Made by a program: the position numbers and the translations under genes | Shown here: piece after piece, positions 6,448-28,045 of the stretch | How positions within the stretch are numbered: position 1 is the first letter of the stretch | Layout of the letters: each line of letters begins with the position of its first letter | Source: Bacillota bacterium | GTDB lineage: Bacteria; Bacillota; Clostridia; Peptostreptococcales; Anaerovoracaceae | Direction of reading: 5' to 3' | NCBI GenBank assembly: GCA_017626845.1 | Contig: JAGAHX010000024.1 | Coordinates: forward strand, 1 to 64,000 | DNA length: 64,000 nucleotides | Notes under the pieces: model-generated | Told to the model about the DNA's origin: nothing | The model's input: only the letters and a program-made list of their open reading frames with translations | Databases searched by the model: none

Positions 6448-8154
6448 ATGTTAAAAAGTCACGAAAAGTATTACAGCGAATTCGGTAAGCGCCAGGTCCT
6501 CGTAGTCGACGACGAAGTCATCAACCGCGAGATGCTCGGTTTTATGCTGGCCTCGGATTACGTCGTCCTGTATGCAGAGGACGGGGAAGATGCACTACAG
6601 AAGATCCGGGAGAACTCCCACACACTCTCTCTCGTGCTGCTGGACCTGATGATGCCGAAACTGGACGGCTTCCAGCTGATGGAGATCCTGCGGACCGACC
6701 CGGAACTGGAGCATATCCCCTATATCGTCCTTACGTCGGAGCGGTCGGCGGAGGTCGCCAGCCTGCGCAGCGGCGCGTCGGACTTTATCGCGAAGCCCTT
6801 CGAGCAGCCCGAAGTCATTCTGGCGCGCATCCAGCGCACCATCGAGCTGGCAGAAGATAAGGACATCATTCAGAACACCGAGCGCGACCCGCTCACCAGT
6901 CTCTTCAACCGGGAATTCTTCTACCGCTACGTGGAGCAGTACGACATGCACCATCCGGCCAAGAAGATGGACGCGGTCGCTCTCAACATCAACCATTTCC
7001 ATCTGCTCAACGAGCTGTACGGCTGGGATTACGGCGATCATGTACTGAGCGCCATCGGCAATAAAGTGCGCGAACTGATGGCAGAAAACGGCGGCATCGC
7101 CGGACGCATGGATGCGGACAGCTTTCTGCTGTACTATCCCAGCGGGGCAGATTACGATTCGATACGCGACATGCTGGGCAGGGGATTGCTGGAAGGCAAG
7201 GCGACCAACAGCAACAAGGTGAAGGTGCGGATCGGCATCTATCCCAACGTAGACAGAGACGTTAAGATCGAGCGCCGGTTCGACCGCGCCAAACAGGCGG
7301 CCGATACGATCCGCAGCAGCTACACAAAATTTGTTGCCTATTACGATAACTCCCTGCGGGAGAAGGAACTGATGGAGGAGAGCCTCATCGAAAGTCTGGA
7401 TACCGCTGTGGCGGAACGGCAGTTCCGGATCTTCTATCAGCCGAAATACGATATTACGGGAGAGAAACCGGTGCTCTGCAGCGCCGAAGCGCTGGTGCGC
7501 TGGAACCACCCGGAATTCGGGATGGTGAGCCCCGGCGTCTTTATCCCGCTGTTCGAGGATAAGGGCCTCATCCAGAAGGTGGACCGTTTCGTCTGGGAGG
7601 AAGCGGCCGCGCAGATATGCGCCTGGAGAGAAAAATTCGGCATAACGCTGCCTGTCTCCGTCAACGTATCGCGGATCGACGTCTACGCGCCGGATTTCGT
7701 GTCGAATTTTAAGAATCTGATGACGAAATATCAGCTGAAGCCCCAGGATTACTACCTGGAGATCACGGAATCCGCCTATACGGAGGACTCCGAGCAGCTG
7801 CTGGCCGTGGTGGGCCAGCTGCGGGAGGAAGGGTTCTCTGTGGAGATGGACGACTTCGGCTCCGGCTATTCGTCCTTGAACATGATCTCCACGCTGCCCA
7901 TCGACGCCCTGAAGCTGGATATGAACTTCATCCGCAACATGCATCGCAAGGAGTCCAAGAACAACCGCATCATCGAATTGATGATCGACATCGCGCGGTA
8001 TCTGGAAGTCCCGGTGGTGGCGGAGGGCGTGGAGACCCAGGATCAGGTCGACCTGCTCCGGTCCATGGGCTGCCATGTCGTACAGGGCTACTATTTCTCG
8101 AAACCCGTATCTGCAGAAGAGTTTGAAGGATTTATCAAGGAGCTGTTGGAATGA
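6448..8154 (+). CDS. Response regulator with REC, degenerate GGDEF and EAL domains (cyclic-di-GMP phosphodiesterase)
   Basis: The protein has 568 residues. The receiver domain keeps the acid pair D21-D22, phospho-acceptor D66 (L-L-D-L-M-M-P) and K116 (A-K-P-F). The middle GGDEF domain is degenerate: the loop reads R-M-D-A-D-S-F, so it should not synthesise cyclic di-GMP. The EAL domain keeps E347-A-L, N-V-S, E-I-T-E-S and D468-D-F-G-S-G-Y-S-S-L, so it should hydrolyse cyclic di-GMP. It is thus the likely antagonist of the preceding cyclase. An AGAGGAG ribosome site precedes the ATG. Its last codon overlaps the Hpt gene, so a phosphorelay input is likely. Confidence 0.9.
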   Translation: MLKSHEKYYSEFGKRQVLVVDDEVINREMLGFMLASDYVVLYAEDGEDALQKIRENSHTLSLVLLDLMMPKLDGFQLMEILRTDPELEHIPYIVLTSERSAEVASLRSGASDFIAKPFEQPEVILARIQRTIELAEDKDIIQNTERDPLTSLFNREFFYRYVEQYDMHHPAKKMDAVALNINHFHLLNELYGWDYGDHVLSAIGNKVRELMAENGGIAGRMDADSFLLYYPSGADYDSIRDMLGRGLLEGKATNSNKVKVRIGIYPNVDRDVKIERRFDRAKQAADTIRSSYTKFVAYYDNSLREKELMEESLIESLDTAVAERQFRIFYQPKYDITGEKPVLCSAEALVRWNHPEFGMVSPGVFIPLFEDKGLIQKVDRFVWEEAAAQICAWREKFGITLPVSVNVSRIDVYAPDFVSNFKNLMTKYQLKPQDYYLEITESAYTEDSEQLLAVVGQLREEGFSVEMDDFGSGYSSLNMISTLPIDALKLDMNFIRNMHRKESKNNRIIELMIDIARYLEVPVVAEGVETQDQVDLLRSMGCHVVQGYYFSKPVSAEEFEGFIKELLE

Positions 8155-8495
8155 TGACGATCGAAAAGTTAAAGGCGTTCGGCGCCAACACGGAAGAGGG
8201 GCTGGGCCGCTGCATGAATAACGAGGCGTTTTATTTCCGGCTGATCGGCATGGCGGCGAAAGACCCCAATTTCGAAAAGCTGGAGATCGCGGTGGTTATG
8301 GAAGAACTGGACGACGCATTCGAAGCGGCGCACGCGTTAAAGGGCGTTTTGGGCAACCTGGCCCTGACGCCGCTGTTTACGCCTGCAAACGAGATGTGTG
8401 AGCTGCTGCGCAGCCGCACGGAGACGGACTACGGCCCGCTGATGGAACAGCTGATGCAGGCGAAAGCCCAATTGGAAGCTCTGCTGGCGGAATAA
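8151..8495 (+). CDS. Hpt domain phosphotransfer protein
   Basis: This is a stand-alone 114-residue helical protein. H61 in A-A-H-A-L-K-G is the phospho-accepting histidine of an Hpt domain, in the standard HxLKG context followed by a second helix (N-L-A-L). The gene overlaps the REC-GGDEF-EAL gene by four bases, so the two products are probably made together and the Hpt protein may pass phosphate to, or drain it from, that receiver. No sensor kinase is in the window. A second in-frame ATG follows directly at 8154. A hairpin terminator ends the operon. Confidence 0.85.
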   Translation: MMTIEKLKAFGANTEEGLGRCMNNEAFYFRLIGMAAKDPNFEKLEIAVVMEELDDAFEAAHALKGVLGNLALTPLFTPANEMCELLRSRTETDYGPLMEQLMQAKAQLEALLAE

Positions 8496-8512
8496 GAAAC
8501 GATAGACATGCA

Positions 8513-8542
8513 ATAAAAAAACCGGCATCTGCCGGTTTTTTG
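8513..8542. terminator. Bidirectional terminator between Hpt gene and lipid kinase
   Basis: AACCGGCA and TGCCGGTT form a stem around a TC centre, flanked by A-tract and T-tract. It can therefore stop transcription from both converging genes. Confidence 0.9.
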
Positions 8543-8552
8543 CTGTCTTGGA

Positions 8553-9446
8553 CTATTTATAGATCGTAAGGGCTTCCTTCATGTTGGTGAGGTGGATGAC
8601 CTTGTCCGACTTCGCTTCTTCGCCGTCCACGGTCCAGGGCGCATTTTTGTCCATCGTGAACGTCAGGTCGGATGCCCGGAAGTAGTCGAACATCTCGTTG
8701 CCCTGCACGGTGGTCGAGAGACCGAGGATGATGTTGCTGAAGTCGATGGGGTCTTTGGGCTCCTTGACCAGCATGACTTCGAACATGCCGTCGTTTAAGT
8801 CCACCTTCTTGTCGTACAGCTTGATGAGCCCCGCGATGGAGCGGGTGTTCGTAACGCAGCCGAAGATGTAGCGGCCCTTGTAGGTCCGGTCTCCGTCTGC
8901 CTTGACGGTGACGTTGTAGGCCCGCAGATGGGTCATATCCTTGATGCCTTCGTACAGATATGCCAGATGGCCGAAGCGGTTCTTGGCGGTCTGGGAAGCG
9001 CTGTAGGAGACTTCTGTAAAGGCGCCGAAGGAGGCGATGTAGATGAAGTGCTGCTGGCCGTCGTTGAAGTTGCCCATATCCAGCGTCTTCGGTTTTTCCT
9101 GGATGATGTGCTCCGTGGCCTTGAGGGGGATGGTGGAGATGCCCAGGGTCCGGGCGAAATCGTTCGTGCTTCCCGCCGGCAGGTAGCCGAAGGGCATATA
9201 TTTTCCGCCTTCCACGATGCCGGACGTGACCTCGTTGAGGGTTCCGTCGCCGCCGGTGCAGACCACCAGGTCGAAGCCTTCGTCCGCCGCCGCTTTTGCC
9301 AGTTCCTTTCCGTGACCCTTATACTGCGTAACGGCGATCGTGACCAGATACCCCGCGTCGCAGAACCGTTTGACGACATTGTACATGGAAGATCCCGCAT
9401 GCTTTTTTCCCGCCACGGGATTGATGATAAACAGCAATTTTTTCAT
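8553..9446 (-). CDS. Diacylglycerol/lipid kinase family protein (DagK/YegS type)
   Basis: This 297-residue cytosolic kinase transfers phosphate from ATP to diacylglycerol or a related lipid. The N-terminal catalytic domain shows I-N-P-V-A-G, the nucleotide loop G-G-D-G-T at 65-69 and G-S-T-N-D-F-A-R-T at 92-100, all standard for the DAGK_cat family. A beta-sandwich C-terminal domain follows and ends at W-T-V-D-G-E-E. Length is normal. It is transcribed divergently from an RND efflux operon, and the two promoters appear to share one palindrome. Recycling diacylglycerol to phosphatidic acid is the usual role; YegS-like substrate choice cannot be excluded. Confidence 0.9.
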   Translation of the reverse strand: MKKLLFIINPVAGKKHAGSSMYNVVKRFCDAGYLVTIAVTQYKGHGKELAKAAADEGFDLVVCTGGDGTLNEVTSGIVEGGKYMPFGYLPAGSTNDFARTLGISTIPLKATEHIIQEKPKTLDMGNFNDGQQHFIYIASFGAFTEVSYSASQTAKNRFGHLAYLYEGIKDMTHLRAYNVTVKADGDRTYKGRYIFGCVTNTRSIAGLIKLYDKKVDLNDGMFEVMLVKEPKDPIDFSNIILGLSTTVQGNEMFDYFRASDLTFTMDKNAPWTVDGEEAKSDKVIHLTNMKEALTIYK

Positions 9447-9499
9447 AGGATACCGTTCCTTTAAAACACTTGAAATTTTAAGGATTACACACCCTGTCT

Positions 9500-9528
9500 A
9501 GTATACTCAGTTCTCCTTGCAAATGCAA
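9500..9528 (-). promoter_or_regulatory. Promoter of the lipid kinase gene
   Basis: Read on the minus strand, TTGCAT (9523-9528) and TATACT (9500-9505) are separated by 17 bp. The -35 box lies in the right half of the palindrome at 9515-9530. Confidence 0.7.
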
Positions 9529-9530
9529 GG
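9515..9530. promoter_or_regulatory. Palindromic operator candidate shared by two divergent promoters
   Basis: CCTTGCA and TGCAAGG are perfect inverted arms around AA. Each arm holds the -35 hexamer of one of two back-to-back promoters. A repressor bound here would block the lipid kinase and the RND operon together. No dedicated regulator gene is adjacent. Confidence 0.55.
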
Positions 9531-9545
9531 CCCTTGCGCTATTAT
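9517..9545 (+). promoter_or_regulatory. Promoter of the RND efflux/amidohydrolase operon
   Basis: TTGCAA at 9517-9522 and TATTAT at 9540-9545 are spaced by 17 bp. The predicted start of transcription near 9552 leaves only a few bases before the ATG at 9561, so translation more likely begins at 9597. Confidence 0.7.
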
Positions 9546-9596
9546 TAATGGTGAATTATTATGCCCTTTTTGAGGCAGGAAAAGGACCAGAAATAT

Positions 9597-10700
9597 ATGG
9601 AACAAGAGAACAGAGAGAACGGGACCATGCAGGAAAAGCAAGACAGAAAAGGGCCCGGTGCCGGCCGGATCGTCGCGGTGCTGATCGCGCTCGGCCTGGT
9701 CGCTTTCTTCGGATATAGAGTGTATCAGTATCTGAACCGCCCGGAGGCAGAGGTGCCTGTGGAAAGCGTCAACGTCATGGTGGAGCAGGCTCTCCTGGAG
9801 GACATCTCGGAGCAGGCTCCCGTTACCGGCCGTCTGGAACCGGTGGAGGAGGTCGCCATCGTGCCTCTGGCGCAGGGGCAGGTGACCCAGGTCTACGTCA
9901 GCGTAGGAGACAAGGTGTCCAAGGGTCAGACGCTGTTCACCATCGACAGTTCCTCCGTCGCAGCGCAGCTCAATCAGGCAAAAGTCGGCGTAGAGGCGGC
10001 CCAGTCCGCCTACGACCGGATGCAGACCCTCTATAACGAGGGCGCCGTATCCGCACAGGATCTGGAGTCCGTCAAGACCCAGTATCTGTCCGCCAAGGAA
10101 TCCTACAACCAGGTGGCGGAAGTCATCAGCAACTATACCGTAACGTCTCCCATCACAGGCTATGTTACGAGCCTTTCCGTCTCCGCCGGCAGCATCGCGG
10201 GCGGCAACGTGGCAGGCTCCGTCGCCAACATCGATTCTCTCGTGGTCAACACCACCGTCTCCGAGAACATGGCGGCGAAGATCAACGTGGGGGACGAAGT
10301 GGACGTATACATCGCCAGTGTCGATCAGACCTTCAAAGGCACCGTTACGACGTTCTCCCGCATTCCCAGCATAGGCACGCTCACCTATCCGCTCACCATC
10401 ACGATGGAACCGGACGAAGCGCTGTTCGCCGGCATGTTCGCGGAAGTGCACATGACGTCCGAGGCGGCGACCAACACCGTTACGGTAAGCTCCGAAGCGG
10501 TCATCATCAAGGGCGGCCGCAGCGTCGTATGCGTCATTGACCCGGCCACAAACATTTCGGCTTTCCGGGAGGTCTCCGTCGGCATCGATAACGGCACCCG
10601 CGTCCAGATCCTCGAAGGTCTGGAAGAAGGGGAGACCGTCGCTTATTCCGGCCAGCAGTTCGTAACAGAAGGTGAAGCCGTCACCATCGTGGGGGAATAG
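9597..10700 (+). CDS. RND efflux membrane-fusion (periplasmic adaptor) protein
   Basis: The protein has 367 residues from the ATG at 9597, preceded by AAAGGA at 10-bp spacing; an in-frame ATG at 9561 would add 12 residues but sits almost at the predicted transcription start. A membrane anchor at about 24-42 is followed by a lipoyl/barrel-sandwich half (V-Y-V-S-V-G-D-K-V-S-K-G-Q), a helical hairpin (S-A-Y-D-R-M-Q-T-L-Y-N-E-G-A-V-S), the second lipoyl half (T-V-T-S-P-I-T-G-Y-V) and a beta-barrel plus membrane-proximal domain. This is the HlyD/AcrA layout. It pairs with the pump gene 3 bases downstream. No outer-membrane factor is present, as is usual in single-membrane Clostridia. Confidence 0.9.
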   Translation: MEQENRENGTMQEKQDRKGPGAGRIVAVLIALGLVAFFGYRVYQYLNRPEAEVPVESVNVMVEQALLEDISEQAPVTGRLEPVEEVAIVPLAQGQVTQVYVSVGDKVSKGQTLFTIDSSSVAAQLNQAKVGVEAAQSAYDRMQTLYNEGAVSAQDLESVKTQYLSAKESYNQVAEVISNYTVTSPITGYVTSLSVSAGSIAGGNVAGSVANIDSLVVNTTVSENMAAKINVGDEVDVYIASVDQTFKGTVTTFSRIPSIGTLTYPLTITMEPDEALFAGMFAEVHMTSEAATNTVTVSSEAVIIKGGRSVVCVIDPATNISAFREVSVGIDNGTRVQILEGLEEGETVAYSGQQFVTEGEAVTIVGE

Positions 10701-10703
10701 CCT

Positions 10704-13700
10704 ATGAAGTTTTCCCTTGCGAAACTCACGATCCGGCGGCCCGTCTCCACCATCATGGTGGTCCTGATGGTCATCGTTCTGGGCGTATCCGCGTTTATGG
10801 ATATCCCCAAGGACCTGATGCCGGAGATGGAACTGCCCTACGCGCTGGTCATGACGACCTATCCCAACGCCTCCCCGGAAGAAGTGGAGAGCATGGTGAC
10901 GGTCACCGTGGAGCAGGCCCTCGCCCAGGTGGAGAACCTGAGCGACATGATCTCCTATTCCCTTGAAAACACTTCGGTCGTGCTGATCCAGTTCAACTTC
11001 GGTACCGACATGAATTTCGCTTCTCTCGACATGCGGGAGAAGATCTCTCTCATCGAAGATTATCTGCCGGACACCTGCTCGCAGCCCATGGTCATGAAAC
11101 TCAACATGAACGCGCTGCCCACCATGCAGGTGTACGTCTCTGCGGATCTCCCCCTGGAGGAGCTGAACTCCATCGTGGAAGACAACGTCGTTTCCTATTT
11201 CGAGCGCTCTTCCGGCGTTGCCTCCGTATCCGTCAACGGCGGCCTGGAAGAGGAGATCTCCATCGTCTTCAGCCAGGAGAATCTTACGAACTACGGCCTT
11301 ACGCTGCAGACCATCGCCCAGATCCTGGCGGCCGAGAACATCAATCTGCCCTCCGGCAATGTGTCCCGGGGCGACAGCAAGGTGATCGTCCGCACCATGG
11401 GCAAATTTGCGTCAGCGGAGGAACTGGGCAACATCCCCCTGATGACCTCCGACTACAGCAAGGTACGGCTGGCGGACGTCGCCACCATCACCCAGGGCGC
11501 CGGCGAACAGGAATCCATCACCCGGATCAACGGCAAGACGGCTGTGGGCATCATGATCACGAAGCAGTCCGACGCCAATACGGTCAAGGTCTCCCAGGCC
11601 CTGAAGAAGGAATTGGCGCGCGTGCAGGCGAAATACCCCCAGCTGAACTTCATCGTCGGCTACGACGCGGCGGATTTCATCAACGCATCCTTAAGCTCTG
11701 TCGGCCGTTCCGCCATCATCGGCGCAGTCCTGGCCGTGCTTGTCGTATTCATCTTCCTGCGCAATGTGCGCAGCACCATGGTCATCGGCATTTCGATCCC
11801 GCTGTGCATCCTGCTCACGTTCGCGGTCATGAATTTCCGGCACATTACGCTCAACCTCGTTACGCTGTGTTCGCTGGCCATCGCCGTCGGCATGATCGTC
11901 GATAACTCCATCGTCGTGCTGGAGAACATCTATTCCACCCGCATGAAGATGGGAAGCGCCAAAGAAGCGGCGGAGTACGGCACCGGAGAAGTCTTCCTGG
12001 CGATCGTGGCCTCCACGGTCACCACGGTGCTGGTATTCCTGCCCATCGCGCTGACGGACGGTCTCGCCAGCATCATGTTCGGCGATTTCTGCCTTACGAT
12101 CATCATCGCGCTGCTGGCCTCGCTGCTGGTGGCGGTCACCGTCGTGCCCATGCTCTGCAGCAAACTGATGCAGGGTAACATAAGCACAGATTATGTCCGT
12201 GTCGGCCGCGTGCGCTATAAATACAAGCTGCTGCCTCTGTTCAACCGGGGGCTGCAGAATCTCATCGGCTGGTATGAAGGGGTCATCCGCAAGGCGCTGA
12301 AAAAGCGGGGCAGGGTGCTGCTCGTCTGCTTCCTGGTGTTCGGCCTGTCCCTGGGACTTCTCGCCATGGTGGGCACGGAACTGCTGCCCGCCTCCGACGA
12401 AGGCTCCATCAACATCTCCGTGGACGTTCCCTACGGCACCTCCCTTGCCACGACGGACAAACTGATGTCCCAGGTGGAGGATTACATCCTGCAGCTGCCG
12501 GAAGTGCGGCACGTCTCCATGAACACGTCCAGCATCTCGGCCCTGTCTTTGGGCGGCGGCGCCAGTTTTACCGTAGGTCTGTGCAGCCGCACGGAGCGGG
12601 AGCGCACGACGGACGAAGTCGCCAAGGATATCGACGACTTCGCGAAGACCATTACCGGCATCAACGTGAGCGCAGCCTCCAGCTCCTCCATCATGGGCAT
12701 GTTCGGCGATTCCGACATCGCCATCTACGTGATGGGTAAGGACTTGGACAAGCTGGAGGAAGTAGGCCGCGACATCGCAGCCAGAACGTCCCGTCTCGAT
12801 CTCATCGAGAGCGCGGAGCTGGACATTACGGAAGGCAGCCCGGAGATCAAGGTGCTCATCAACCGGGGCACGGCGAGTTTCTACGGCGTTACGGCCTATC
12901 AGCTGGCCAGCGGCCTCTCCGGCGCTTTAAACGGCGTGACCGCCACCAACGTCAGCATCGACGGGGAAGATATCGCGGTCAAGCTCTCCCTCAGCGATTA
13001 CTACGCCGAATCCATCGAGAACATGAAGCAGATCGTCATCAACGGCAATTACGGCACGCCCGTTACCGTCGGACAGATCGCCAGCTTCGAGTTCGACAAT
13101 TCCCCGGCCAACATCACGCGCTACAATCAGAGCCGCTACTTCATCGTGAACGCCGCGATCCAGGGCGACAGCTTATCCGCCGCCTCCGATCAGGTGCAGG
13201 CCATGCTGGACGCCTATCCGTTCCCGGACGGCTATTCCTATGAGATCCAGGGCCTGGCGGACACGATGATGGAGATGTTCGGCAGCCTGTTCAAGGCGCT
13301 CATCGTCGCCATCGCGCTGGTATTCCTGGTGCTGGCGGCCCAGTTCGAATCCATGACCATGGCGTTCATCGTCATGATGGCGATCCCCTTCGCCATGACC
13401 GGCGCCTTTATCGCCATGTTCCTCACCGGCACGAAGATGTCCCTCACATCGCTTCTGGGTCTCGTTCTGCTGGTGGGCACCGTCGTCAACAGCTCCATCC
13501 TGCTGGTGGAGTTCATCAATCAGAATAAACAGGCCATGGGCAGGGAAGACGCGCTGGTCGCTGCCGGAAAGCAGAGACTGCGCCCCATCCTGATGACCAC
13601 CCTCACCACCATCGTCGGCATGATCCCGCTGTCCCTGGGATATGGCGAAGGCGGCGAGATCCTGGCGCCCATGGGTATCTCCATCATCGGCGGTCTGCTT

Positions 13701-13853
13701 ACGTCCACGCTGCTCACCCTCATCGTCATCCCCTGCATGTACAAGCTGGTGGAGGAGAGAAGAGACCGGAGCGCGGAGAGAAGCGCTGCCAGAGCTGCGG
13801 AGATCGCGGCGCTGGAGGCCAAGTGGGCCGAAGAGGATGCGAAAGGAAACTAA
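10704..13853 (+). CDS. RND-family efflux transporter (HAE1/AcrB type)
   Basis: This 1049-residue inner-membrane pump has the expected duplicated plan: a membrane helix at the N-terminus (R-R-P-V-S-T-I-M-V), a large extracytoplasmic loop, a six-helix bundle from about 330, a second loop and a second helix bundle from about 860. The fourth-helix proton-relay motif reads V-G-M-I-V-D400-N-S-I-V-V-L-E-N, so the second Asp of the AcrB pair is Asn here, a change I believe is common in related pumps of Gram-positives. Length is typical. It is coupled to the adaptor upstream. The next gene, an aldolase, begins one base after its stop codon, so the pump is part of a long metabolic operon. Confidence 0.92.
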   Translation: MKFSLAKLTIRRPVSTIMVVLMVIVLGVSAFMDIPKDLMPEMELPYALVMTTYPNASPEEVESMVTVTVEQALAQVENLSDMISYSLENTSVVLIQFNFGTDMNFASLDMREKISLIEDYLPDTCSQPMVMKLNMNALPTMQVYVSADLPLEELNSIVEDNVVSYFERSSGVASVSVNGGLEEEISIVFSQENLTNYGLTLQTIAQILAAENINLPSGNVSRGDSKVIVRTMGKFASAEELGNIPLMTSDYSKVRLADVATITQGAGEQESITRINGKTAVGIMITKQSDANTVKVSQALKKELARVQAKYPQLNFIVGYDAADFINASLSSVGRSAIIGAVLAVLVVFIFLRNVRSTMVIGISIPLCILLTFAVMNFRHITLNLVTLCSLAIAVGMIVDNSIVVLENIYSTRMKMGSAKEAAEYGTGEVFLAIVASTVTTVLVFLPIALTDGLASIMFGDFCLTIIIALLASLLVAVTVVPMLCSKLMQGNISTDYVRVGRVRYKYKLLPLFNRGLQNLIGWYEGVIRKALKKRGRVLLVCFLVFGLSLGLLAMVGTELLPASDEGSINISVDVPYGTSLATTDKLMSQVEDYILQLPEVRHVSMNTSSISALSLGGGASFTVGLCSRTERERTTDEVAKDIDDFAKTITGINVSAASSSSIMGMFGDSDIAIYVMGKDLDKLEEVGRDIAARTSRLDLIESAELDITEGSPEIKVLINRGTASFYGVTAYQLASGLSGALNGVTATNVSIDGEDIAVKLSLSDYYAESIENMKQIVINGNYGTPVTVGQIASFEFDNSPANITRYNQSRYFIVNAAIQGDSLSAASDQVQAMLDAYPFPDGYSYEIQGLADTMMEMFGSLFKALIVAIALVFLVLAAQFESMTMAFIVMMAIPFAMTGAFIAMFLTGTKMSLTSLLGLVLLVGTVVNSSILLVEFINQNKQAMGREDALVAAGKQRLRPILMTTLTTIVGMIPLSLGYGEGGEILAPMGISIIGGLLTSTLLTLIVIPCMYKLVEERRDRSAERSAARAAEIAALEAKWAEEDAKGN

Positions 13854-13854
13854 C

Positions 13855-14532
13855 ATGCTTTTAGAAGAAAAACGTAAAGAACTCGTCGCCATCGGCCTGC
13901 GGGCCATCCGGGAAGGGCTTACCACCGGCACCGGGGGAAATTTTTCCGTCTGTGACCGCGCCAGCGGCCTGATGTGCATCACCCCCTCGGGCATTCCCTA
14001 CGTGGACATCAAGCCCGAACAGATCGTCGTGATGGACATCCAGAACGGAAAAATCGTGGACGGAGATGCCGTGCCCTCCAGCGAATGCGACATGCACCGC
14101 ATCTTTTATAAATACCGCACGGATATCGATGCGGTCATCCACACCCATACGACCTACGCTTCCACCTACAGCTGCTTCCGCCGGCCGCTTCCGCCGATCC
14201 ACTATCTCGCGGCTTTCGGCGGCAGTCACGTGAACTGCGCGGAATACGCCACCTACGGCACCGTGGAGCTGGCGCGGAACGCTTTTCAGGCGATGGAAGG
14301 GGTCAATGCGGTGCTTTTGGCCAATCATGGCCTTTTGACCGGCGCAAAGACCCTGAATGAGGCGTATAATATAACTGAGGAACTGGAATTCTGCTGCAAG
14401 ATGGTCTGCACCAGCATGGCCATGGAAGCCAGCGGCTGTAAGCCCGTAGAGCTCCCCCAGGACGAAATGGACCGTATGGTGGAGCGCTTTAAAGGCTACG
14501 GCAAAGTGCACGAGAAGCACGAGGAGATCTGA
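13855..14532 (+). CDS. Class II aldolase/adducin family protein (L-fuculose-phosphate aldolase-like)
   Basis: The protein has 225 residues. The zinc-dependent class II aldolase fold is shown by G-T-G-G-N-F-S near 25-31, the catalytic acid E77 in S-S-E-C-D, the zinc ligands H96 and H98 in I-H-T-H-T, and H158 in N-H-G-L-L. These enzymes split sugar phosphates into DHAP plus an aldehyde, or epimerise ribulose 5-phosphate; the substrate cannot be fixed here. The ATG at 13855 has GAAAGGA at good spacing. The preceding frame stays open into the pump gene, but an upstream start is unsupported. The following dehydrogenase starts directly after its stop, with a sugar kinase next, which argues for one sugar or sugar-acid pathway. 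Confidence 0.87.
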   Translation: MLLEEKRKELVAIGLRAIREGLTTGTGGNFSVCDRASGLMCITPSGIPYVDIKPEQIVVMDIQNGKIVDGDAVPSSECDMHRIFYKYRTDIDAVIHTHTTYASTYSCFRRPLPPIHYLAAFGGSHVNCAEYATYGTVELARNAFQAMEGVNAVLLANHGLLTGAKTLNEAYNITEELEFCCKMVCTSMAMEASGCKPVELPQDEMDRMVERFKGYGKVHEKHEEI

Positions 14533-17064: not shown

Positions 17065-18696
17065 ATGTCATTGCTCATCAGAAACGCCAACATCGCGACC
17101 ATGGACAGCGAACAGCCCAGAGCGCAGGCTGCCGTGGTCACGGGCAAGTATTTCGCCTACGTAGGCAGCGAGGAGGGCGCGAAGGAATACATCGCGGCCC
17201 ATAACGACGGCACCTGCGAGGAAGTGGACTGCGGCGGCCAGCTGCTGCTGCCCGGGTTCAACGACTCCCACATGCATTTCCTGCACTACGTAAAGACCCG
17301 CATCCACGTGGACCTCGTGGGATGCACGTCCCTCAAAGAGGTGCTGGACCGCATGAAGGAAGCCTACAAGACCTTCGACAAGAGCGACGGTCTGTGGTTC
17401 GTGGGCGAAGGCTGGAACCAGGATTACTTTACGGACGAGAAGCGGTTCCTCACGAAGGACGACCTGGATACCATCACGACGGACTGGCCCATCATGATCC
17501 AGCGCACCTGCGGACACGTGGGCGTGCTCAACTCCAAGGGTATCGAGATGTTCGACATGAGCCAGGGAGAGGGCCTGAAGTACAAGGAATACGCGGAAGT
17601 CGGCCCGGACGGCAAGCTCAACGGCGTCATTAAGGAGAACCTGTTCGACTACATGAAGACCACGCTGCCCGCACCGTCTCTGGAAAAGCTGATGGACCTG
17701 ATGGAAAAGCACCAGTACGACCTGTTCGAGAAGGGCCTCACCTCCGTGCAGTCCGATGAAGGCAACTACACCCCGGCAGGCCGCTATCACGATCTGCAGA
17801 AGCTGATGAGAGAACGGGCGGAGAAGGGAACCTTCAAGCTCCGTCTGGCTTCCCAGATGCTGTACTTCAACGCGGAGAAACTGAAGTGGGCGTTCTCCGA
17901 AGGCTACGACACGTCCTTCGGCAACGACACCGTCAAGATCTCCTGCACGAAACTGCTGTCCGACGGGTCCCTGGGCGCCAGAACGGCTCTCATGAGGAAG
18001 CCCTACGCGGACGATGCTTCCACCACCGGCCTGGCTCTGTGGACCCAGGAAGGCCTCAACGAGATGGTGGAGATCTCCCAGCGGCAGAACGTGCCCGTGG
18101 CGGTCCACGCCATCGGCGACGGCGCTGTCGAAATGGTGATCAACGCCGTGGAAGCCGCCCAGAAGAAGTATCCCCACGTGCATCCCAGACACACCGTGGT
18201 GCATAGCCAGGTGACCGACAGAGCGCTGCTGCAGCGCATGAAGGATCTGGGCATCTCCGTTATGGTGCAGCCCATCTTCATCGACTACGACATGCACGTC
18301 ATCTACGACCGAGTGGGCAAGGAACTGGCGGAGAGTTCCTACGTTTGGAAGTGGTACAAGGATATGGGCATCCACATGAGCTTCGGCACCGACTGCCCGG
18401 TGGAATCCTTCGAACCGGTGCAGGGCATTTACTGCGCCGTCACGAGACTGGCGAAGAACGGCGACGGACCGTACCTGCCGGAGCAGGCGCTGTCCGTGGA
18501 GGATGCCATCTACGCCTATACGGCGGAGTCCGCTTGGAATACGGGCGACGAAAACAAAAAGGGTAAAGTAAAGGCAGGCATGCTTGCAGACTTCATTACC
18601 ATGGACAGAGACCTTTACACCATCGATCCCAAGGACATTTTGAACGCGAAGGTGACGCGCACCTTCGTGGGAGGAGAAAAGGTTTACGAGAGGTAA
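17065..18696 (+). CDS. YtcJ-type amidohydrolase, paralogue 1 (most divergent)
   Basis: This is a 543-residue metal-dependent hydrolase of the amidohydrolase superfamily, Amidohydro_3/YtcJ branch. Metal ligands are visible: H69 and H71 (D-S-H-M-H), the Lys of T-K-L-L-S-D-G, His in V-H-A-I-G-D, His in V-V-H-S-Q and Asp in F-G-T-D-C-P. The beta-sandwich ends at the C-terminal G-M-L-A-D-F-I-T-M-D. The family includes N-substituted formamide deformylase and other amide or carbamate hydrolases. Its N-terminus and C-terminus differ from the next four paralogues, which look alike. GAGGAGGAAAG gives a strong ribosome site. It is the first of three such enzymes in the main operon. Confidence 0.88.
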   Translation: MSLLIRNANIATMDSEQPRAQAAVVTGKYFAYVGSEEGAKEYIAAHNDGTCEEVDCGGQLLLPGFNDSHMHFLHYVKTRIHVDLVGCTSLKEVLDRMKEAYKTFDKSDGLWFVGEGWNQDYFTDEKRFLTKDDLDTITTDWPIMIQRTCGHVGVLNSKGIEMFDMSQGEGLKYKEYAEVGPDGKLNGVIKENLFDYMKTTLPAPSLEKLMDLMEKHQYDLFEKGLTSVQSDEGNYTPAGRYHDLQKLMRERAEKGTFKLRLASQMLYFNAEKLKWAFSEGYDTSFGNDTVKISCTKLLSDGSLGARTALMRKPYADDASTTGLALWTQEGLNEMVEISQRQNVPVAVHAIGDGAVEMVINAVEAAQKKYPHVHPRHTVVHSQVTDRALLQRMKDLGISVMVQPIFIDYDMHVIYDRVGKELAESSYVWKWYKDMGIHMSFGTDCPVESFEPVQGIYCAVTRLAKNGDGPYLPEQALSVEDAIYAYTAESAWNTGDENKKGKVKAGMLADFITMDRDLYTIDPKDILNAKVTRTFVGGEKVYER

Positions 18697-18699
18697 AAA

Positions 18700-20352
18700 A
18701 TGAGTAAAACAGCATTTCTGAACGGTAAAGTTTACGTAGACGCAGGCCACTTCGAAGAGGCGATCCTGCAGGAGGACGGCATCATCAAGGCGGTGGGCAC
18801 CAACGGAGAGATCCTGGCCCTGTGCGACTGGGAGACCGAAAAGATCGACTGCGGCGGCAAGACCGTCATCCCCGGTCTCAACGATTCCCACATGCACCTG
18901 CTGATGATCGGCGAAGTCCTGAACGAGCCCCCCATCGGAGGTTGCAAGTCCGTCGAGGATATGGTCGAGATCTGCAAGAAGTTTGCGGCGGAAAACCCGG
19001 ATGCGATCCGTCAGGGCATGCACGGCCAGGGCTGGAACCAGGATCTGTTCGAAGAGGGCAAGGTACGCCTGCCCAACCGGGACGACCTGGACCAGATCTC
19101 CACGGAATATCCCATCATGCTGGAAAGAGTGTGCGGCCACACCTGCGCGCTCAACTCCAAGGCGCTGGAGATCCTGGGCATCAACGACGATACGCCCGTG
19201 GACTTCTATGAAGGCGGCACCATCGAACGGGATGAAAATGGCCGGGTCAACGGCTACGTAACCGAAAACGCGGTATATGAAGTGCGCAAAGTCGTTCCCT
19301 CCGCCGACCCCGCCGGCATGAGAAAAGAGCTGCTCTCCGCCATGAAATATGCGACGGAGCACGGCCTTACCTCTGTGCAGTCCAACGACCTGGGCTTTAT
19401 GATCCCCAACTCCGATGAGAACTTCAAGGTCTATAAGGACCTCTACGATGCCAAGGAAGCATCCATCCGTTTCCGCCATCAGGTCTGCTGCCTGCTGGAG
19501 AAGGATCTGGACGAATTCCTGGCCGGGGAATACGCCAACCGGGAAATCTACGACAAGTACAACGGCTGGCTCACCTTAGGACCCCTCAAGATGTTCAAGG
19601 ACGGCTCCATCGGCGCCAGAACGGCTCTGATGAGAGAACCCTACGTGGATGACCCGACCAACTACGGCATCGACTCCCTGGAGCAGGGACTGATGGAGAC
19701 GCTGGTGAAGAAGGCTGCTGCGAACGGCCTGCAGTGCGTCACCCACGTCATCGGCGACCGGGCGGTGGAACTCACCAACCAGGCCTACGAAAAGGTTCTG
19801 GTGGACGGGAAGAACGTTCTGAGAAACTGCCTCATCCACTGCGAACTGACCGGCAAGGATCTGCTGGAATACATCAAGAAGACCGACTCCCTCATCGCTT
19901 ACCAGCCCGTGTTCCTGCAGGGCGACCAGTACACGATGGCGACCCGGTTTAAGCCGGAGCTCATCAAGACTTCGCTGGCCTGCAAGACTGTCATCGACAT
20001 GGGCATCCACGCGTCCTACGGTACGGACAGCCCGGTGGAGGACTCTAACCCCTTCGCCAACATCTACTGCGCCGTCAATCGCAAGGACCTCACCGGAAAG
20101 CCCGAGGAAGGCTGGAATACCCAGGAGTGCGTTACCGTGGAGCAGGCCATCGACGCCTACACCGTGGAAAGCGCCTACATGGAATTCGCGGAAGAGTACA
20201 AGGGCCGCATTAAGCCCGGCTATTACGCGGACCTGGAGATCCTGGACACCGACATCTTTACCTGTGACCCCATGGACATCATCCATATCCTGCCCGAACT
20301 GGTGATGGTAGGCGGAGAGATCGTCCTGAGAGATAAGATCTATCAGAAGTAG
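18700..20352 (+). CDS. YtcJ-type amidohydrolase, paralogue 2
   Basis: The 550-residue protein follows paralogue 1 by 3 bases. All metal ligands are retained: H64 and H66 (D-S-H-M-H), Lys in L-K-M-F-K-D-G-S, His in T-H-V-I-G-D, His in L-I-H-C-E, and Asp in Y-G-T-D-S-P-V-E. The N-terminus (M-S-K-T-A-F-L-N-G-K-V-Y-V) and C-terminus (K-P-G-Y-Y-A-D-L) match paralogues 3-5 closely, pointing to duplication. No signal peptide is seen, so it acts in the cytosol. The substrate is unknown; residues between the conserved blocks differ, which suggests a specificity distinct from the others. Confidence 0.88.
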   Translation: MSKTAFLNGKVYVDAGHFEEAILQEDGIIKAVGTNGEILALCDWETEKIDCGGKTVIPGLNDSHMHLLMIGEVLNEPPIGGCKSVEDMVEICKKFAAENPDAIRQGMHGQGWNQDLFEEGKVRLPNRDDLDQISTEYPIMLERVCGHTCALNSKALEILGINDDTPVDFYEGGTIERDENGRVNGYVTENAVYEVRKVVPSADPAGMRKELLSAMKYATEHGLTSVQSNDLGFMIPNSDENFKVYKDLYDAKEASIRFRHQVCCLLEKDLDEFLAGEYANREIYDKYNGWLTLGPLKMFKDGSIGARTALMREPYVDDPTNYGIDSLEQGLMETLVKKAAANGLQCVTHVIGDRAVELTNQAYEKVLVDGKNVLRNCLIHCELTGKDLLEYIKKTDSLIAYQPVFLQGDQYTMATRFKPELIKTSLACKTVIDMGIHASYGTDSPVEDSNPFANIYCAVNRKDLTGKPEEGWNTQECVTVEQAIDAYTVESAYMEFAEEYKGRIKPGYYADLEILDTDIFTCDPMDIIHILPELVMVGGEIVLRDKIYQK

Positions 20353-20363
20353 GAGGCATTCAA

Positions 20364-21494
20364 ATGCGCAACAAGGAAAAACTTCAGAAGGCAATCGAAC
20401 TGAGACACGAGATCCATCAGAATCCGGACCTCTCCAACCAGGAGAGACCGACCTACGAACGGATCATGAAATTTCTGAAGGAGAATGCGCCGTCCATCGA
20501 GATCGTGGATAAGGGCTACTACGTGTACGCCATTTACCACAGTGAACATCCGGAAAGACCCCGCATCGCCTTCCGTACGGAGGTGGATGCGCTTCCCATC
20601 GAGGACCTGATCGACGAGCCTTACAAGAGCTGTAAGCCCGGCGTGGGTCACAAGTGCGGCCACGACGGCCATGCGGCCACCATGTGCGCGCTGGCCATGG
20701 AACTGGACGAATTCGGCGCAGACCGGGACGTCTACATGATCTTCCAGCCCGCCGAGGAGACCGGCGACGGCGCGCGGCAGTGCACCGACTTCATTACCGA
20801 CAATAACATCGCGGAGATCTACGGCATGCACGGCAGCATCGACGAGGACTACGGCGTGGTGCAGACCAAGGCCGGCCTGATGAACTGCGCATCCGAAGGC
20901 ATGTGCATCGAGTACAAGGGCGTTTCCACCCACGCTTCTCTTCCGGAGCTGGGCAAGAACCCGACCCTGGCGCTGGCGAAGCTGGCACTGTACTGCGACG
21001 AGCTGGAGAAGTCCGAAGGCTATAAGGGCCTCATCATGTCCACCGTCTGCTACATGCGTTCCGGCGATCCCGAAGCCTACGGCGTAGCGGCCCATAAGGG
21101 CTGCTTCCAGGTGACCCTCAGAGGCTCCATCGAAGACGAGATGGTGGATCTGGAGCACAAGGTGGAAGCCAAGGCGAAGGAACTGGCGGAAGAGTACGGC
21201 TTAGGCATCGAGATCTCTTATTCCGACCGTTTCCCCGAGACCGTAAACGATCCGGACTGCGTGGAAAAGATCTTCGAAGCCTGCAGACGCATCGGCGTTC
21301 CTACGGCGGTCCGTCCCGCTGCGGAAAGAGGCTCCGAGGACTTCGGCCACTTTGCAAAGCACACGAAGGGCGCCATGTTCTTCTACTGCTACGGCAAGGA
21401 CAATCCGGACATGCACTCCACTGAATTCAATTTCCACGACGACATCATCGACCGTGTGATCGATATCTACGACGAACTCATCAAGATGTACTAA
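20364..21494 (+). CDS. M20-family amidohydrolase (aminoacylase/N-acyl-amino-acid deacylase type)
   Basis: The 376-residue protein shows the M20D pattern: R-T-E-V-D-A-L-P-I near 71-79, the metal-binding C98-G-H100-D-G-H motif, Q-P-A-E-E-T at 129-133, and a C-terminal ligand in D-M-H-S-T-E-F. Such enzymes remove acyl groups from amino acids or cleave amide-linked conjugates, a chemistry related to that of the flanking amidohydrolases. A small dimerisation domain lies in the middle. It sits between paralogues 2 and 3 with short gaps (11 and 13 bases) and strong ribosome sites, so it is part of the same operon. Confidence 0.88.
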   Translation: MRNKEKLQKAIELRHEIHQNPDLSNQERPTYERIMKFLKENAPSIEIVDKGYYVYAIYHSEHPERPRIAFRTEVDALPIEDLIDEPYKSCKPGVGHKCGHDGHAATMCALAMELDEFGADRDVYMIFQPAEETGDGARQCTDFITDNNIAEIYGMHGSIDEDYGVVQTKAGLMNCASEGMCIEYKGVSTHASLPELGKNPTLALAKLALYCDELEKSEGYKGLIMSTVCYMRSGDPEAYGVAAHKGCFQVTLRGSIEDEMVDLEHKVEAKAKELAEEYGLGIEISYSDRFPETVNDPDCVEKIFEACRRIGVPTAVRPAAERGSEDFGHFAKHTKGAMFFYCYGKDNPDMHSTEFNFHDDIIDRVIDIYDELIKMY

Positions 21495-21507
21495 GAAGGA
21501 GGTACCT

Positions 21508-23109
21508 ATGAGCAAGACAGCATTCTACAACGCGAAAGTTTACGTAGAGAAGGGCGTTTTCGCGGAAGCCATCCTGCAGGAAGACGGATGGATCAAAGCG
21601 GTGGGCACCACCGGCGAGATCCTGTCTCTGGCAGGTTATGACGCAGAGAAGATCGACTGCGGCGGCAAGACCATCGTGCCCGGCTTCAACGACTCCCACA
21701 TGCACATCCTGCAGGTGGGCATGGCCATGACCCAGCTGGATCTCTCCGGCTGCAAGAGCGTGGAGGACATGATCGCGGCAGGACGGCAGTACATCGCCGA
21801 CCATCCCGGCATCCAGGGCATCTTTACCCAGTCCTGGAACGACGACATGTTCGATCCCGACAAGAAGCGTCTGCCCGACAAGCACGACTGCGACGCCATC
21901 TCCACCGAGATCCCCGTATTCCTGGGCCGTATCTGCGGACACTCTGCAGCGGTCAACAGCCTCATCCTGAAGAAGATGGGCCTGGATAAGGATCATCACA
22001 CCATCGAAGGCGGCGAAGTGGTCCTGGGCGAAGACGGCGAACCCAACGGCTATCTGTTCGAAGCGGCCCAGGCAGAAGCCCGTCTGGCAGTGCCTCAGAT
22101 GACGGTGGAAGACGCCAAGATGTACTACGGCAAGGCCATGAAGTACGCCGTGGAACACGGCATGACCACCACCCAGTCCAACGACTACACCACCGTCGCT
22201 CCGAAGCAGATCGTCAAGGCGGCTCTGGAAGACATGTATGCAGACGGCACCGCGCCCATGCGCTACGTGGCCCAGTGCGGCTGCGAGAACATGAAGCAGG
22301 CCGAGGAATTCGTTGCGGAAGACTGGGGCAGAAAGGTGGGCCTGATGGAATACGGCCCCGCCAAGATGTTCAAGGACGGCTCTCTGGGCGCCCGCTCCGC
22401 CATGATGATCCACGGCTATGCGGATGACCCAAACGCAAAGGGCGTCGACCGCATCGCAGACAGCGAACAGATGGCCATGATCCAGTATTTCCAGGATCAC
22501 GGCGTTACGGTCGCGACCCACTGCATCGGCGACGGAGCCATCGACGTGACCCAGAAGATGTACGCCAAGGCTGCCGGCACCGAGAACAAGTACCGCCACA
22601 ACATCATCCATTACCAGATCACGGACATGGATATGGTGAAGTTCACGAGAGAGCACAACATCCTCGTGTCCTACCAGCCTGTGTTCCTGCAGTACGACCT
22701 CCACATCGTGGAGAGCCGCTGCGGACACGACCTGGCCATGCAGTCCTACTGCTTCAAGACTGCGCATGACATGGGCATCCACGCCTCCTACGGCACGGAC
22801 AGCCCCGTGGAAGACTGCAACCCGCTGGCCAACATCTACTGCGCCGTCACCCGCAAGGACTTCAAGGGTCAGCCGCTGGAAGGCTGGAACCCGGCAGAGT
22901 GCGTCGACGTGGAGACCGCTGTGGACGCCTACACCTACGAGAGCGCCTATGCGGAGTTCAAAGAGGGTGTAAAGGGCCGCATCAAGCCCGGATTCTACGC
23001 GGATCTGGTGGTTCTGGATAAGGATATCTTCACCTGCGATCCCATGGAGATCAAGGACGTTCTGCCTGTGCTCACCATGGTGGACGGCAAGATCGTTTAC
23101 AGAAAGTAA
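21508..23109 (+). CDS. YtcJ-type amidohydrolase, paralogue 3
   Basis: The protein has 533 residues with AAGGAGG ahead of the ATG. Ligands are H64/H66, Lys in A-K-M-F-K-D-G-S, His in T-H-C-I-G-D-G, His in I-I-H-Y-Q and Asp in Y-G-T-D-S-P-V-E. The C-terminus (K-P-G-F-Y-A-D-L-V-V-L-D, then M-E-I-K-D-V-L-P-V-L-T) is nearly the same as that of paralogue 4, so these two are probably the most recent duplicates. A hairpin terminator follows directly, ending the main operon that began at the RND adaptor. Confidence 0.88.
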   Translation: MSKTAFYNAKVYVEKGVFAEAILQEDGWIKAVGTTGEILSLAGYDAEKIDCGGKTIVPGFNDSHMHILQVGMAMTQLDLSGCKSVEDMIAAGRQYIADHPGIQGIFTQSWNDDMFDPDKKRLPDKHDCDAISTEIPVFLGRICGHSAAVNSLILKKMGLDKDHHTIEGGEVVLGEDGEPNGYLFEAAQAEARLAVPQMTVEDAKMYYGKAMKYAVEHGMTTTQSNDYTTVAPKQIVKAALEDMYADGTAPMRYVAQCGCENMKQAEEFVAEDWGRKVGLMEYGPAKMFKDGSLGARSAMMIHGYADDPNAKGVDRIADSEQMAMIQYFQDHGVTVATHCIGDGAIDVTQKMYAKAAGTENKYRHNIIHYQITDMDMVKFTREHNILVSYQPVFLQYDLHIVESRCGHDLAMQSYCFKTAHDMGIHASYGTDSPVEDCNPLANIYCAVTRKDFKGQPLEGWNPAECVDVETAVDAYTYESAYAEFKEGVKGRIKPGFYADLVVLDKDIFTCDPMEIKDVLPVLTMVDGKIVYRK

Positions 23110-23124
23110 TATTGTGTAACCATA

Positions 23125-23155
23125 CAGTGCCCGGATCCTTCCGGGCACTGTTTTT
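23125..23155 (+). terminator. Terminator after amidohydrolase paralogue 3
   Basis: CAGTGCCCGG and CCGGGCACTG form a perfect 10-bp stem around a 6-base loop, followed by five T. It separates paralogue 3 from paralogue 4; partial read-through is possible because paralogue 4 has no obvious promoter of its own. Confidence 0.9.
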
Positions 23156-23175
23156 CGAAATAGGGGGGATCCATA

Positions 23176-24804
23176 ATGAGCAAGACCTTATTCTACAACG
23201 CAAAAGTCTACGTCGAAAAAGATACCTTTGCCCAGGCCGTCTATCAGGAAGATGGATGGATCAAAGCCGTCGGCAGCAACGAGGACATCTGCCCGCTGGC
23301 AGCGGAGGACGCGGAAAAGATCGACTGCGAAGGCCGCGTGCTGGTGCCGGGGTTCAACGATTCCCACATGCACATGTGCTTTACCGGCCAGAACATGCTG
23401 GTGCCCGACCTCTCCCAGGTGAAGAACGGCAAGGAGATGGTGGCGGTCATCAAGAAATACGTAGATGAGAACCCGGGGATCAACGGCGTGTTCTCCCAGA
23501 GCTGGGACCAGAACCGCTGGGATGACCCGACCATTCCCACCTGCAAAGACCTGGATACGATCTCCACGGAGATCCCCATCGTGCTCAACCGCTCCTGCGG
23601 TCACATCGGCGTTTCCAACAGCTACGTGCTGAAGAAGCTGGGCATCGATAAGGACCACAAGACCTGGGAAGGCGGCCGCATCGACTGCTTTGAGGACGGC
23701 ACGCCCAACGGCATCATGGCGGAGACGCCGAACTTCGCAGCCCGCATGTCCGTGCCGCCCATCACGAAGGAGCAGGAGAAGAAAGCTCTCGTAATGGCCA
23801 TGGAATACGCGGCGGCCCACGGCATGACCTCCACACAGTCCAACGACATGGGTACGATCATCAAAGATCATGACTATTGCTTCGAGATCGTCGACGAAGT
23901 GTTCGAAGAAGGCAAAGGCCTGGTACGCTACCACTCCCAGACCCTGGTGGATACGCCGGAGGAACTGAAGGAAAAGGTAAAGAACCCCAAGTATTACAAG
24001 GGCACGTTCCACGACGGATGGTTTACCATGGGCCCTTTAAAACTACTGAAGGACGGCTCCTACGGCGGCCATTCGGCCCTGATGAGAAGGGACTACGACG
24101 ACCAGCCCGGCAACCGCGGCGTCGAGAACATTCCCGACGACAAGATGTACGAGATGGTGAAGATCGCCAACGAAAACGGCGTCGGCTGCGCCATCCACTG
24201 CATCGGCGACGGCGCGCTGGAGAAGGTCGTTGACTGCTATGCGAAGGTCCAGGCGGAGCTCTTCGGTGACCCCGCGAACAATCCCTGCCGCAACGCCATC
24301 GTGCACTGCCAGACCATGGATGCTTCGCTGCGCCAGAAGGTGAAGGATGCGAACATCCAGGCCATGTACCAGCCGGTCTTCATCCGCACGGATATGTACG
24401 GTCTGGAGGAGCGCATCGGCAAGGCCATGTGCTACACCTCCAACTCCCCGAAGACCATGCGGGCCATGGGCATCCACGTGTCCTACGGCACCGACTCTCC
24501 CGTAGAGGACTGCAACCCGCTGGTCAACCTTTATGTGGCGGTCACCCGTAAGGATATGGCCGGCAAACCCGAAGGCGGCTGGTATCCCGACGAATGCGAA
24601 GACGTGCAGACCGCCGTGGATGCCTACACCATCGAGAGCGCCTGGGCGCAGGGCATGGAGGACGTGAAAGGACGCATCAAGCCCGGCTTCTATGCCGACC
24701 TTACGGTGCTGGACCACGACATCTTTACCTGCGATCCCATGGAGATCAAGGATACGCTGCCGGTGCTCACCATGTGCGGCGGCAAGTTCACCTACAGAAA
24801 GTAG
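23176..24804 (+). CDS. YtcJ-type amidohydrolase, paralogue 4
   Basis: The protein has 542 residues with GGGGGGA before the ATG. Metal-site residues are H64/H66, Lys in L-K-L-L-K-D-G-S, His in I-H-C-I-G-D-G, His in I-V-H-C-Q and Asp in Y-G-T-D-S-P-V-E. After the metal-site Lys block it reads Y-G-G-H-S-A-L-M where its paralogues read G-A-R-(T/S)-A, a likely change in the active-site wall. The terminator upstream and the palindrome downstream isolate it from its neighbours. Substrate unknown. Confidence 0.88.
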   Translation: MSKTLFYNAKVYVEKDTFAQAVYQEDGWIKAVGSNEDICPLAAEDAEKIDCEGRVLVPGFNDSHMHMCFTGQNMLVPDLSQVKNGKEMVAVIKKYVDENPGINGVFSQSWDQNRWDDPTIPTCKDLDTISTEIPIVLNRSCGHIGVSNSYVLKKLGIDKDHKTWEGGRIDCFEDGTPNGIMAETPNFAARMSVPPITKEQEKKALVMAMEYAAAHGMTSTQSNDMGTIIKDHDYCFEIVDEVFEEGKGLVRYHSQTLVDTPEELKEKVKNPKYYKGTFHDGWFTMGPLKLLKDGSYGGHSALMRRDYDDQPGNRGVENIPDDKMYEMVKIANENGVGCAIHCIGDGALEKVVDCYAKVQAELFGDPANNPCRNAIVHCQTMDASLRQKVKDANIQAMYQPVFIRTDMYGLEERIGKAMCYTSNSPKTMRAMGIHVSYGTDSPVEDCNPLVNLYVAVTRKDMAGKPEGGWYPDECEDVQTAVDAYTIESAWAQGMEDVKGRIKPGFYADLTVLDHDIFTCDPMEIKDTLPVLTMCGGKFTYRK

Positions 24805-24811
24805 TATGACG

Positions 24812-24856
24812 CTTCGACAGGCTCAGCGTCCGTAACGGTCCCTGAGCCTGTCGAAG
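24812..24856. repeat. REP-like palindrome CTTCGACAGGCTCAG
   Basis: CTTCGACAGGCTCAG (24812-24826) and its exact reverse complement (24842-24856) flank a 15-base spacer between paralogues 4 and 5. The same core sequence is, from memory, a widely dispersed palindromic repeat in many bacterial genomes. It lies in the gap, and its right end supplies the only purine-rich stretch (GAAGGGA) ahead of the next start. It could also behave as a weak hairpin in RNA. Confidence 0.8.
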
Positions 24857-24875
24857 GGACGATTTGGTAACATCT

Positions 24876-26676: not shown

Positions 26677-26701
26677 TGCTTCAACGCAAGAGGTGATGCA
26701 T

Positions 26702-27988: not shown

Positions 27989-28045
27989 CAGCCGAAGTGA
28001 TATTTACTAAAGCGATGGATGAAACAGGCTATGGGAGGAAAAGCC

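Follow-up and report, generated by a model that had tools for sequence, protein, structure and literature searches.

In E. coli, the promoters of bioA and bioBFCD diverge and overlap, and a palindrome lies between them, as at the locus described here, but the BirA operator at that site is ~40 bp long and proven, while the palindrome at our locus is 14-16 bp long and made of -35 boxes. In umuDAb-ddrR of Acinetobacter, divergent sigma-70 promoters have both -35 boxes overlapping one inverted repeat, as do ours; the repeat is described there as part of the binding site of UmuDAb, which is encoded adjacent to it, whereas no regulator was recognised near our locus (PMC7273328). A Gram-positive case of overlapping divergent promoters, argued to be mutually exclusive, is Pc/Pr of the Bacillus plasmid pLS20 (PMC4207663). 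In its authors' favoured reading, each -10 coincides with the other promoter's -35, an offset that differs from ours, and the product of an adjacent regulator gene binds operators (PMC4207663).

The bidirectional promoters described by Warman et al. (PMC12825309; in Salmonella, PMC10268837) resemble what we propose here in that a symmetric sequence lets polymerase bind either way round, though never both ways at once, and one of them, PacrA/acrR, likewise serves an RND pump (PMC12825309). Those promoters share a -10 element and have starts 7-25 bp apart, whereas our -10 hexamers (9500-9505 and 9540-9545) are not shared; since it is the -35 boxes that abut and the predicted starts lie ~60 bp apart, the locus falls outside the definition of a bidirectional promoter given in that account. 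As reported by Warman et al. 2026, all five bidirectional promoters tested were too low in basal activity for competition, which emerged once one direction was strongly activated; these were promoters with a shared -10, one of them driving acrA (PMC12825309). Our locus is an arrangement of a known general kind; no description of the abutting -35 offset was met in the open-licence papers examined, and a search of open-licence papers found none on this locus or on abutting -35 mirror promoters as a class.

The locus occupies 46 bp at positions 9500-9545 of the window, by which we mean the whole 64,000-nucleotide stretch of DNA analysed, which comes from an uncultured bacterium. It is laid out as AGTATA-N11-TTGCAA/ATGCAA-N11-TATTAT and was also recovered by a mirror pattern search (G000:C16:9500-9545). 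Its elements and the genes that it faces are as follows.

8553..9446, minus strand: lipid kinase gene (DAGK_cat + YegS_C; YegS/Rv2252/BmrU family), target of the minus-strand promoter
9500..9505, minus strand: -10 hexamer TATACT of the lipid-kinase promoter, read from the sequence; the aligned hexamer is kept, with variation, in 11 loci
9515..9530, no strand: palindrome CCTTGCAAATGCAAGG, with the conserved core CTTGCAAATGCAAG at 9516-9529
9517..9522, plus strand: -35 hexamer TTGCAA of the pump-operon promoter, left palindrome arm, from the promoter scan
9523..9528, minus strand: -35 hexamer TTGCAT of the lipid-kinase promoter, right palindrome arm, from sequence, mirror pattern and conservation
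9540..9545, plus strand: -10 hexamer TATTAT of the pump-operon promoter, from the promoter scan
9597..10700, plus strand: RND periplasmic adaptor (MFP/HlyD-type) gene (TIGR01730, E 9.4e-51)
10704..13853, plus strand: RND permease gene, AcrB family (PF00873, E 7.2e-239)
13855..14532, plus strand: class II aldolase gene, next in the operon (PF00596, E 8.7e-53, scanned from 13852)

The first-pass annotation had described two divergent promoters with their -35 boxes within one palindrome, and both the sequence and its conservation bear this out. On the plus strand, TTGCAA (9517-9522) is followed after 17 bp by TATTAT (9540-9545), with a promoter scan score of 9/12; on the minus strand, TTGCAT (9528-9523) is followed after 17 bp by TATACT (9505-9500), matching consensus at 8/12 positions. 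The minus-strand promoter is missing from the scan list because TTGCAT matches TTGACA at only 3/6 positions and the scan rule requires four. Both have the near-consensus hexamers at 16-18 bp expected of sigma-A (sigma-70 type) promoters, and their core elements overlap in the manner of an overlapping divergent pair. Since the left arm serves the rightward promoter and the right arm the leftward one, the two interleave, each 17-bp spacer holding the opposite promoter's -35 box, and each polymerase would cover the other's -35. Starts are predicted at ~9552 (plus) and ~9493 (minus), ~60 bp apart. CCTTGCAAATGCAAGG equals its own reverse complement save for two central mismatches, so the palindrome as originally described holds for the arms at 9515-9530 but not for the centre, AAAT, which is asymmetric; the pair reads as a palindrome because the -35 hexamers abut (TTGCAA/ATGCAA). 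Just 3' of the first plus-strand promoter, a possible second one (TTGCGC-17-TATTAT) lies at 9534-9562. Its TTGCGC is absent from the seven genus relatives compared, and a third CCTTGC, at 9532-9537, is likewise not common to these seven.

The lipid kinase matches PF00781 (E 1.4e-33) and PF19279 (E 9.6e-07), and scores 160.3 bits against the TIGR00147 cut-off of 118.65, which places it in the YegS/Rv2252/BmrU family. On the other side, the adaptor gene likely starts at ATG 9597, which follows a ribosome-binding-like stretch, AGGAAAAGGA, rather than at ATG 9561. The plus-strand genes run adaptor, RND, aldolase, dehydrogenase, FGGY-kinase and then six hydrolase genes, all on the same strand, so that the name "RND/amidohydrolase operon" given earlier is a fair one. 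The hydrolases (17065-26510), of which five are Amidohydro_3 and one is M20, follow one another in an unusual run of related genes, which together with the pump, aldolase, dehydrogenase and FGGY-kinase genes ahead of it is probably one catabolic operon. Further along the window lie a gene for an MmeI-type (type IIL) restriction-modification protein (28019-30841), adjoined by AAA_14/DUF4143 (26693-27988) and DUF3800 (30994-31629) genes, and a 396-aa frame (31806-32996) for one protein matching DUF134, Nitro_FeMo-Co and FKBP_C in Pfam, an odd combination of domains.

We followed the layout in eight genomes of the genus and in a draw of 247 genomes of the family. The kinase is present in all eight genus genomes, and the layout lies upstream of it in every one, with the exact core CTTGCAAATGCAAG in seven and CTTGCAGACGCAAG in G005. 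Loss of the palindrome while the genes remain, which the first-pass annotation had named as evidence that would count against it, was thus not found within the genus, where all eight genomes keep the palindrome. In the family, 206/247 genomes have kinase matches (E 1e-20); among 63 upstream regions taken outside the genus from the best-scoring matches, and inspected up to 350-400 bp (a few were shorter), the layout was found in all three kinase-bearing genomes of a second genus, g38, and in none of the 60 from other genera. The kinase matches listed do not include a fourth g38 genome, G186, whose assembly is 77% complete. The palindrome site is therefore lineage-specific. When the two -10 hexamers were required to match jointly at at least 8/12 positions, the layout was present in 11/71 kinase upstream regions, all in the two genera, compared to a mean of 0.26/71 in 200 sets of mononucleotide shuffles; its occurrence at the kinase locus is beyond chance.

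Both spacers are exactly 17 bp in 10 of the 11 orthologous loci, while the minus-strand -10 of G005 scores equally at 17 or 18 bp, and the TTGC...GCAA arms are retained in 10/11. Across six diverged representatives (G000, G001, G005, G118, G044 and G159), pairwise identity is 0.88 for the 14-bp core and 0.72 and 0.80 for the -10 hexamers (0.80 for that of the plus strand), compared to 0.39 and 0.29 for the spacers and 0.32 and 0.31 for the flanks. Invariant in these six lineages are TTGCA, the seventh base A, CAA and the following G; positions four and five of the minus-strand -35 vary (C/A and A/G/T, respectively). In a kinase tree of 30 rows (without G007, and with G005 partial), the g1 rows group together (support 94/92), as do the g38 rows (100/99), but the tree does not resolve how the two groups are related, so that a single origin for the site can be no more than conjecture.

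The two arms, TTGCAA and TTGCAT, are in ordinary use as -35 boxes in this genome. The pattern TTG-N20-TATAAT occurs at 72 sites in the window's genome, compared to 8 for the pattern read backwards, and the -35 boxes at these promoter-like sites include TTGACA 12 times, TTGCAA 6 times and TTGCAT 5 times, the latter two together making up 11/72; position four is A in 31 and C in 29. A C immediately precedes TTG in 14 of the 30 promoter-like sites with flanks examined, which accounts for the outer C/G of the palindrome. However, CAA stands at the mirror position in only 2/72 sites, so the palindrome is not a generic feature of promoters. The core's six inner bases have an identity of 0.77 across the six lineages, compared to 0.34 predicted by independent draws of -35 boxes, and none of 20,000 simulations that treated the lineages as independent reached 0.77; for the chosen triple G000, G005 and G159, inner-base conservation gave P 0.027. 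Shared descent inflates this excess, yet the spacers are near random. We also considered a palindromic -35 as a general feature of the family, but TTGC-N4-GCAA-N11-TATNNT occurs in 131/247 genomes and its one-base-shifted form in 105/247, a slight enrichment, and this idea was dropped.

From these data we consider it probable that the locus is an interleaved, mirror-symmetric two-way sigma-A promoter whose outputs are set by polymerase competition rather than by a dedicated repressor. Polymerase would take only one of the two orientations at any given moment, rightward binding leading to transcription of the pump/aldolase operon and leftward binding to that of the lipid kinase. Both promoters would fire, and competition would set the ratio of their outputs, probably just under conditions in which one side is highly active, with no dedicated repressor taking part. 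The earlier claim that polymerase binding in the two directions must compete therefore has to be softened: competition is sterically expected, but "must" is too strong, because basal activity at the promoters reported by Warman et al. 2026 was too low for it (PMC12825309). By analogy, the low basal activity of those shared -10 promoters may extend to this locus. On this reading the palindrome itself is mainly a by-product of two head-to-head -35 boxes, and a dedicated repressor is not needed.

Operons for RND pumps are often controlled by repressors, and the E. coli MarR operator has the same TTGC-N4-GCAA spacing as the arms described here. It is accordingly conceivable, though in our view doubtful, that the palindrome is additionally an operator at which a dimeric repressor, for instance of the MarR or TetR type, binds CTTGCA-AA-TGCAAG, covering the two -35 boxes, and shuts both the kinase gene and the pump operon. 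The core is more conserved than the -10 hexamers and than -35 boxes in general predict, which leaves some room for an operator, and the TTGC...GCAA arms persist in 10/11 loci. The site is also symmetric, as expected for a dimeric repressor of the umuDAb/ddrR type, but abutting -35 boxes would give the same symmetry, and three of the six lineages (G005, G044 and G159) have lost the symmetry of the arms at the fifth position, G159 at the fourth as well, with the promoter geometry intact. The regulator of such an operator is usually encoded beside it or from a gene with its own copy of the site. No regulator gene was recognised in the operon when the window genes at 6448-9446 and 9561-32996 were searched with Pfam, and inspection of two g38 loci by eye revealed none there; one encoded at a distance is conceivable. 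Within the scanned set, the closest candidate for a DNA-binding protein is the frame at 31806, well past the operon, whose DUF134 we take to be a DNA-binding domain. Extending the search for the palindrome to the whole genome, as the first-pass annotation had suggested, did not favour an operator either: CTTGC-N4-GCAAG has four sites in the window's genome, the other three within open frames, and across the eight genus genomes there are 29 sites (2-7 per genome, eight of them the kinase sites) compared to 29 for the reversed pattern. Twelve of the 21 non-kinase sites were viewed in context and revealed no regulon: among seven in five relatives, five lie in open frames, one before a tRNA-like sequence and one in phage-like DNA, and a further five, from the window's own genome and two relatives, all lie within open frames. 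The suggestion that one repressor could shut both promoters thus has a precedent in umuDAb/ddrR, where both -35 boxes overlap one inverted repeat of the repressor site (PMC7273328), but at this locus no regulator was recognised and the arms are ordinary -35 boxes.

An activator bound elsewhere could instead drive one direction and repress the other only through polymerase competition, leaving the palindrome passive, as with SoxS/MarA at PacrA/acrR. This mechanism is reported in E. coli for the bidirectional promoter of another RND pump (PMC12825309), and both promoters here are below consensus, but we regard it as improbable, as the 43 bp that flank the 46-bp layout to the left and to the right hold no block conserved across the two genera (identity 0.32 and 0.31). 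Least credible of all, and to be given almost no weight, is that the elements are juxtaposed by chance or form a terminator-like DNA or RNA hairpin instead of promoters. Although a weak terminator-like match overlaps 9524-9538, it relies on the CCTTGC at 9532-9537 that is missing in the relatives compared; the palindrome lies outside both predicted transcripts (starts ~9552 and ~9493); an Rfam search of 8400-10800 returned only two sub-threshold matches, at 8415-8549; and the conservation and shuffle tests speak against chance juxtaposition.

Mirror promoters with abutting -35 boxes are found elsewhere in the family, next to genes unrelated to those of the kinase locus. The pattern ANNATA-N11-TTG-N6-CAA-N11-TATNNT has 54 sites in 48/247 genomes and 26 genera, compared to 6 in the reversed control, and the kinase locus accounts for only 6 of the 54. 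Some of these, in which one side reads AAAATA, resemble unidirectional promoters that have A-rich DNA upstream. When the -35 boxes overlap by two bases there are 26 sites (23 genomes, 13 genera; control 3), and when they are one base apart 22 sites (20 genomes, 15 genera; control 4). The abutting offset is thus about twice as common as either, with one-sided binomial P values of 0.001 and 0.0002 by sites, a test that treats sites as independent, and of 0.03 and 0.06 when genera are counted, so that copies in the same genus carry no extra weight. At 30 mirror loci, one per genome, the neighbours named by eye include rpsB, rplM, rplS, greA and TetR-type regulators, and many loci have an evident gene on one side only. 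Two loci recur with genes on both sides, again named by eye from sequence: in g39, five species have the mirror site between an S6-like and a DUF1846-like gene that face away from it, and in g72, four species have one between a HutD-like and an acyltransferase-like gene. Inner-six identity is 0.70 and 0.75 at the g39 and g72 sites, compared to 0.86 over the 11 kinase loci and 0.77 over the six diverged ones, a difference that is suggestive only, because the g39 species compared lie closer together in the kinase tree.

Several individual sites deserve mention. In G119 of g39 (L274, ~760-1790), the S6-like and DUF1846-like genes are ~1 kb apart and TTGCATTCGCAA stands on both sides of the gap, each copy paired with its own gene's -10, as if each direction needed its own -35. 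A second mirror promoter of the window's genome, at C28:17032-17077 (L266 1533-1578), is centred on TTGATTAGTCAA. It is flanked on one side by a gene for a TetR-type regulator (Pfam TetR_N, TetR_C_8) and on the other by a divergently oriented gene whose product has a signal-peptide-like start, and the site is likely to be an autoregulated operator. In G023 (L103 1501-1546), the mirror promoter preceding a TetR-like gene contains a dyad of far greater length, ATACCATATAAA...TTTATATGGTAT; in contrast to the palindrome of the kinase locus, this one resembles a genuine operator. In G001 (L067 447-460), CTTGCAATCGCAAG and a TAAAAT -10 lie just 5' of a putative tRNA gene, as judged by eye.

With respect to the genes that the kinase promoter faces, the divergent lipid-kinase/RND pair spans it in 6/11 genomes, with both genera represented. 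The right-hand genes are adaptor and RND permease in the window's genome, G007 and G005, and the permease is found in three of the eight genus genomes (E 1e-50). In g38, a gene of the C_GCAxxG_C_C type comes first (Pfam-tested in G159 and G044), followed by adaptor and RND; G159 also has the aldolase. The remaining five genomes (G001, G002, G003, G004 and G006; assemblies 75-92% complete) gave no permease match at E 1e-50 and no adaptor match at E 1e-30, yet they still keep the promoter, so the promoter does not need the pump. The first gene 3' of it is the aldolase in G002, G003, G004 and G006 and an M20-type hydrolase in G001; in these genomes without a pump match, the promoter is retained in front of whichever operon comes next. 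We had also entertained the reading that the palindrome tracks the kinase with an arbitrary right-hand gene, but this was wrong: the g38 loci share the adaptor-RND pair, and G159 the aldolase too, and varied right-hand partners coincide with the absence of pump genes in the five genomes. Conversely, RND adaptor matches were present in 79/247 genomes, and of 30 adaptor loci examined, six have the mirror site, all with the kinase alongside; the other 24 include one kinase match, in the g28 genome G111, where kinase and adaptor are ~1.4 kb apart on the same contig without a mirror site. The proposed link of lipid turnover with efflux thus stands as a gene pair conserved across two genera and is weakened by the 5/11 genomes that keep the promoter with no pump found. 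It is a link of conserved gene neighbourhood; a functional one is only putative.

The kinase locus also serves as a warning: a palindrome that is conserved in the gap between divergent genes is not necessarily bound by a repressor, since abutting -35 boxes suffice to create one. A bolder reading, which we offer as speculation and think unlikely, is that the abutting -35 mirror is a recurrent architecture of this Bacillota family, selected as a regulator-free either/or (or noise-damped) choice, which here would couple membrane lipid phosphorylation to an RND pump, with the inner bases tuning the ratio of outputs. The conserved S6-like/DUF1846-like and HutD-like loci provide natural replicates within the family. 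If polymerase competition alone balances kinase and pump expression, this would be a coupling that requires no regulator and could be tested on a single 46-bp fragment.
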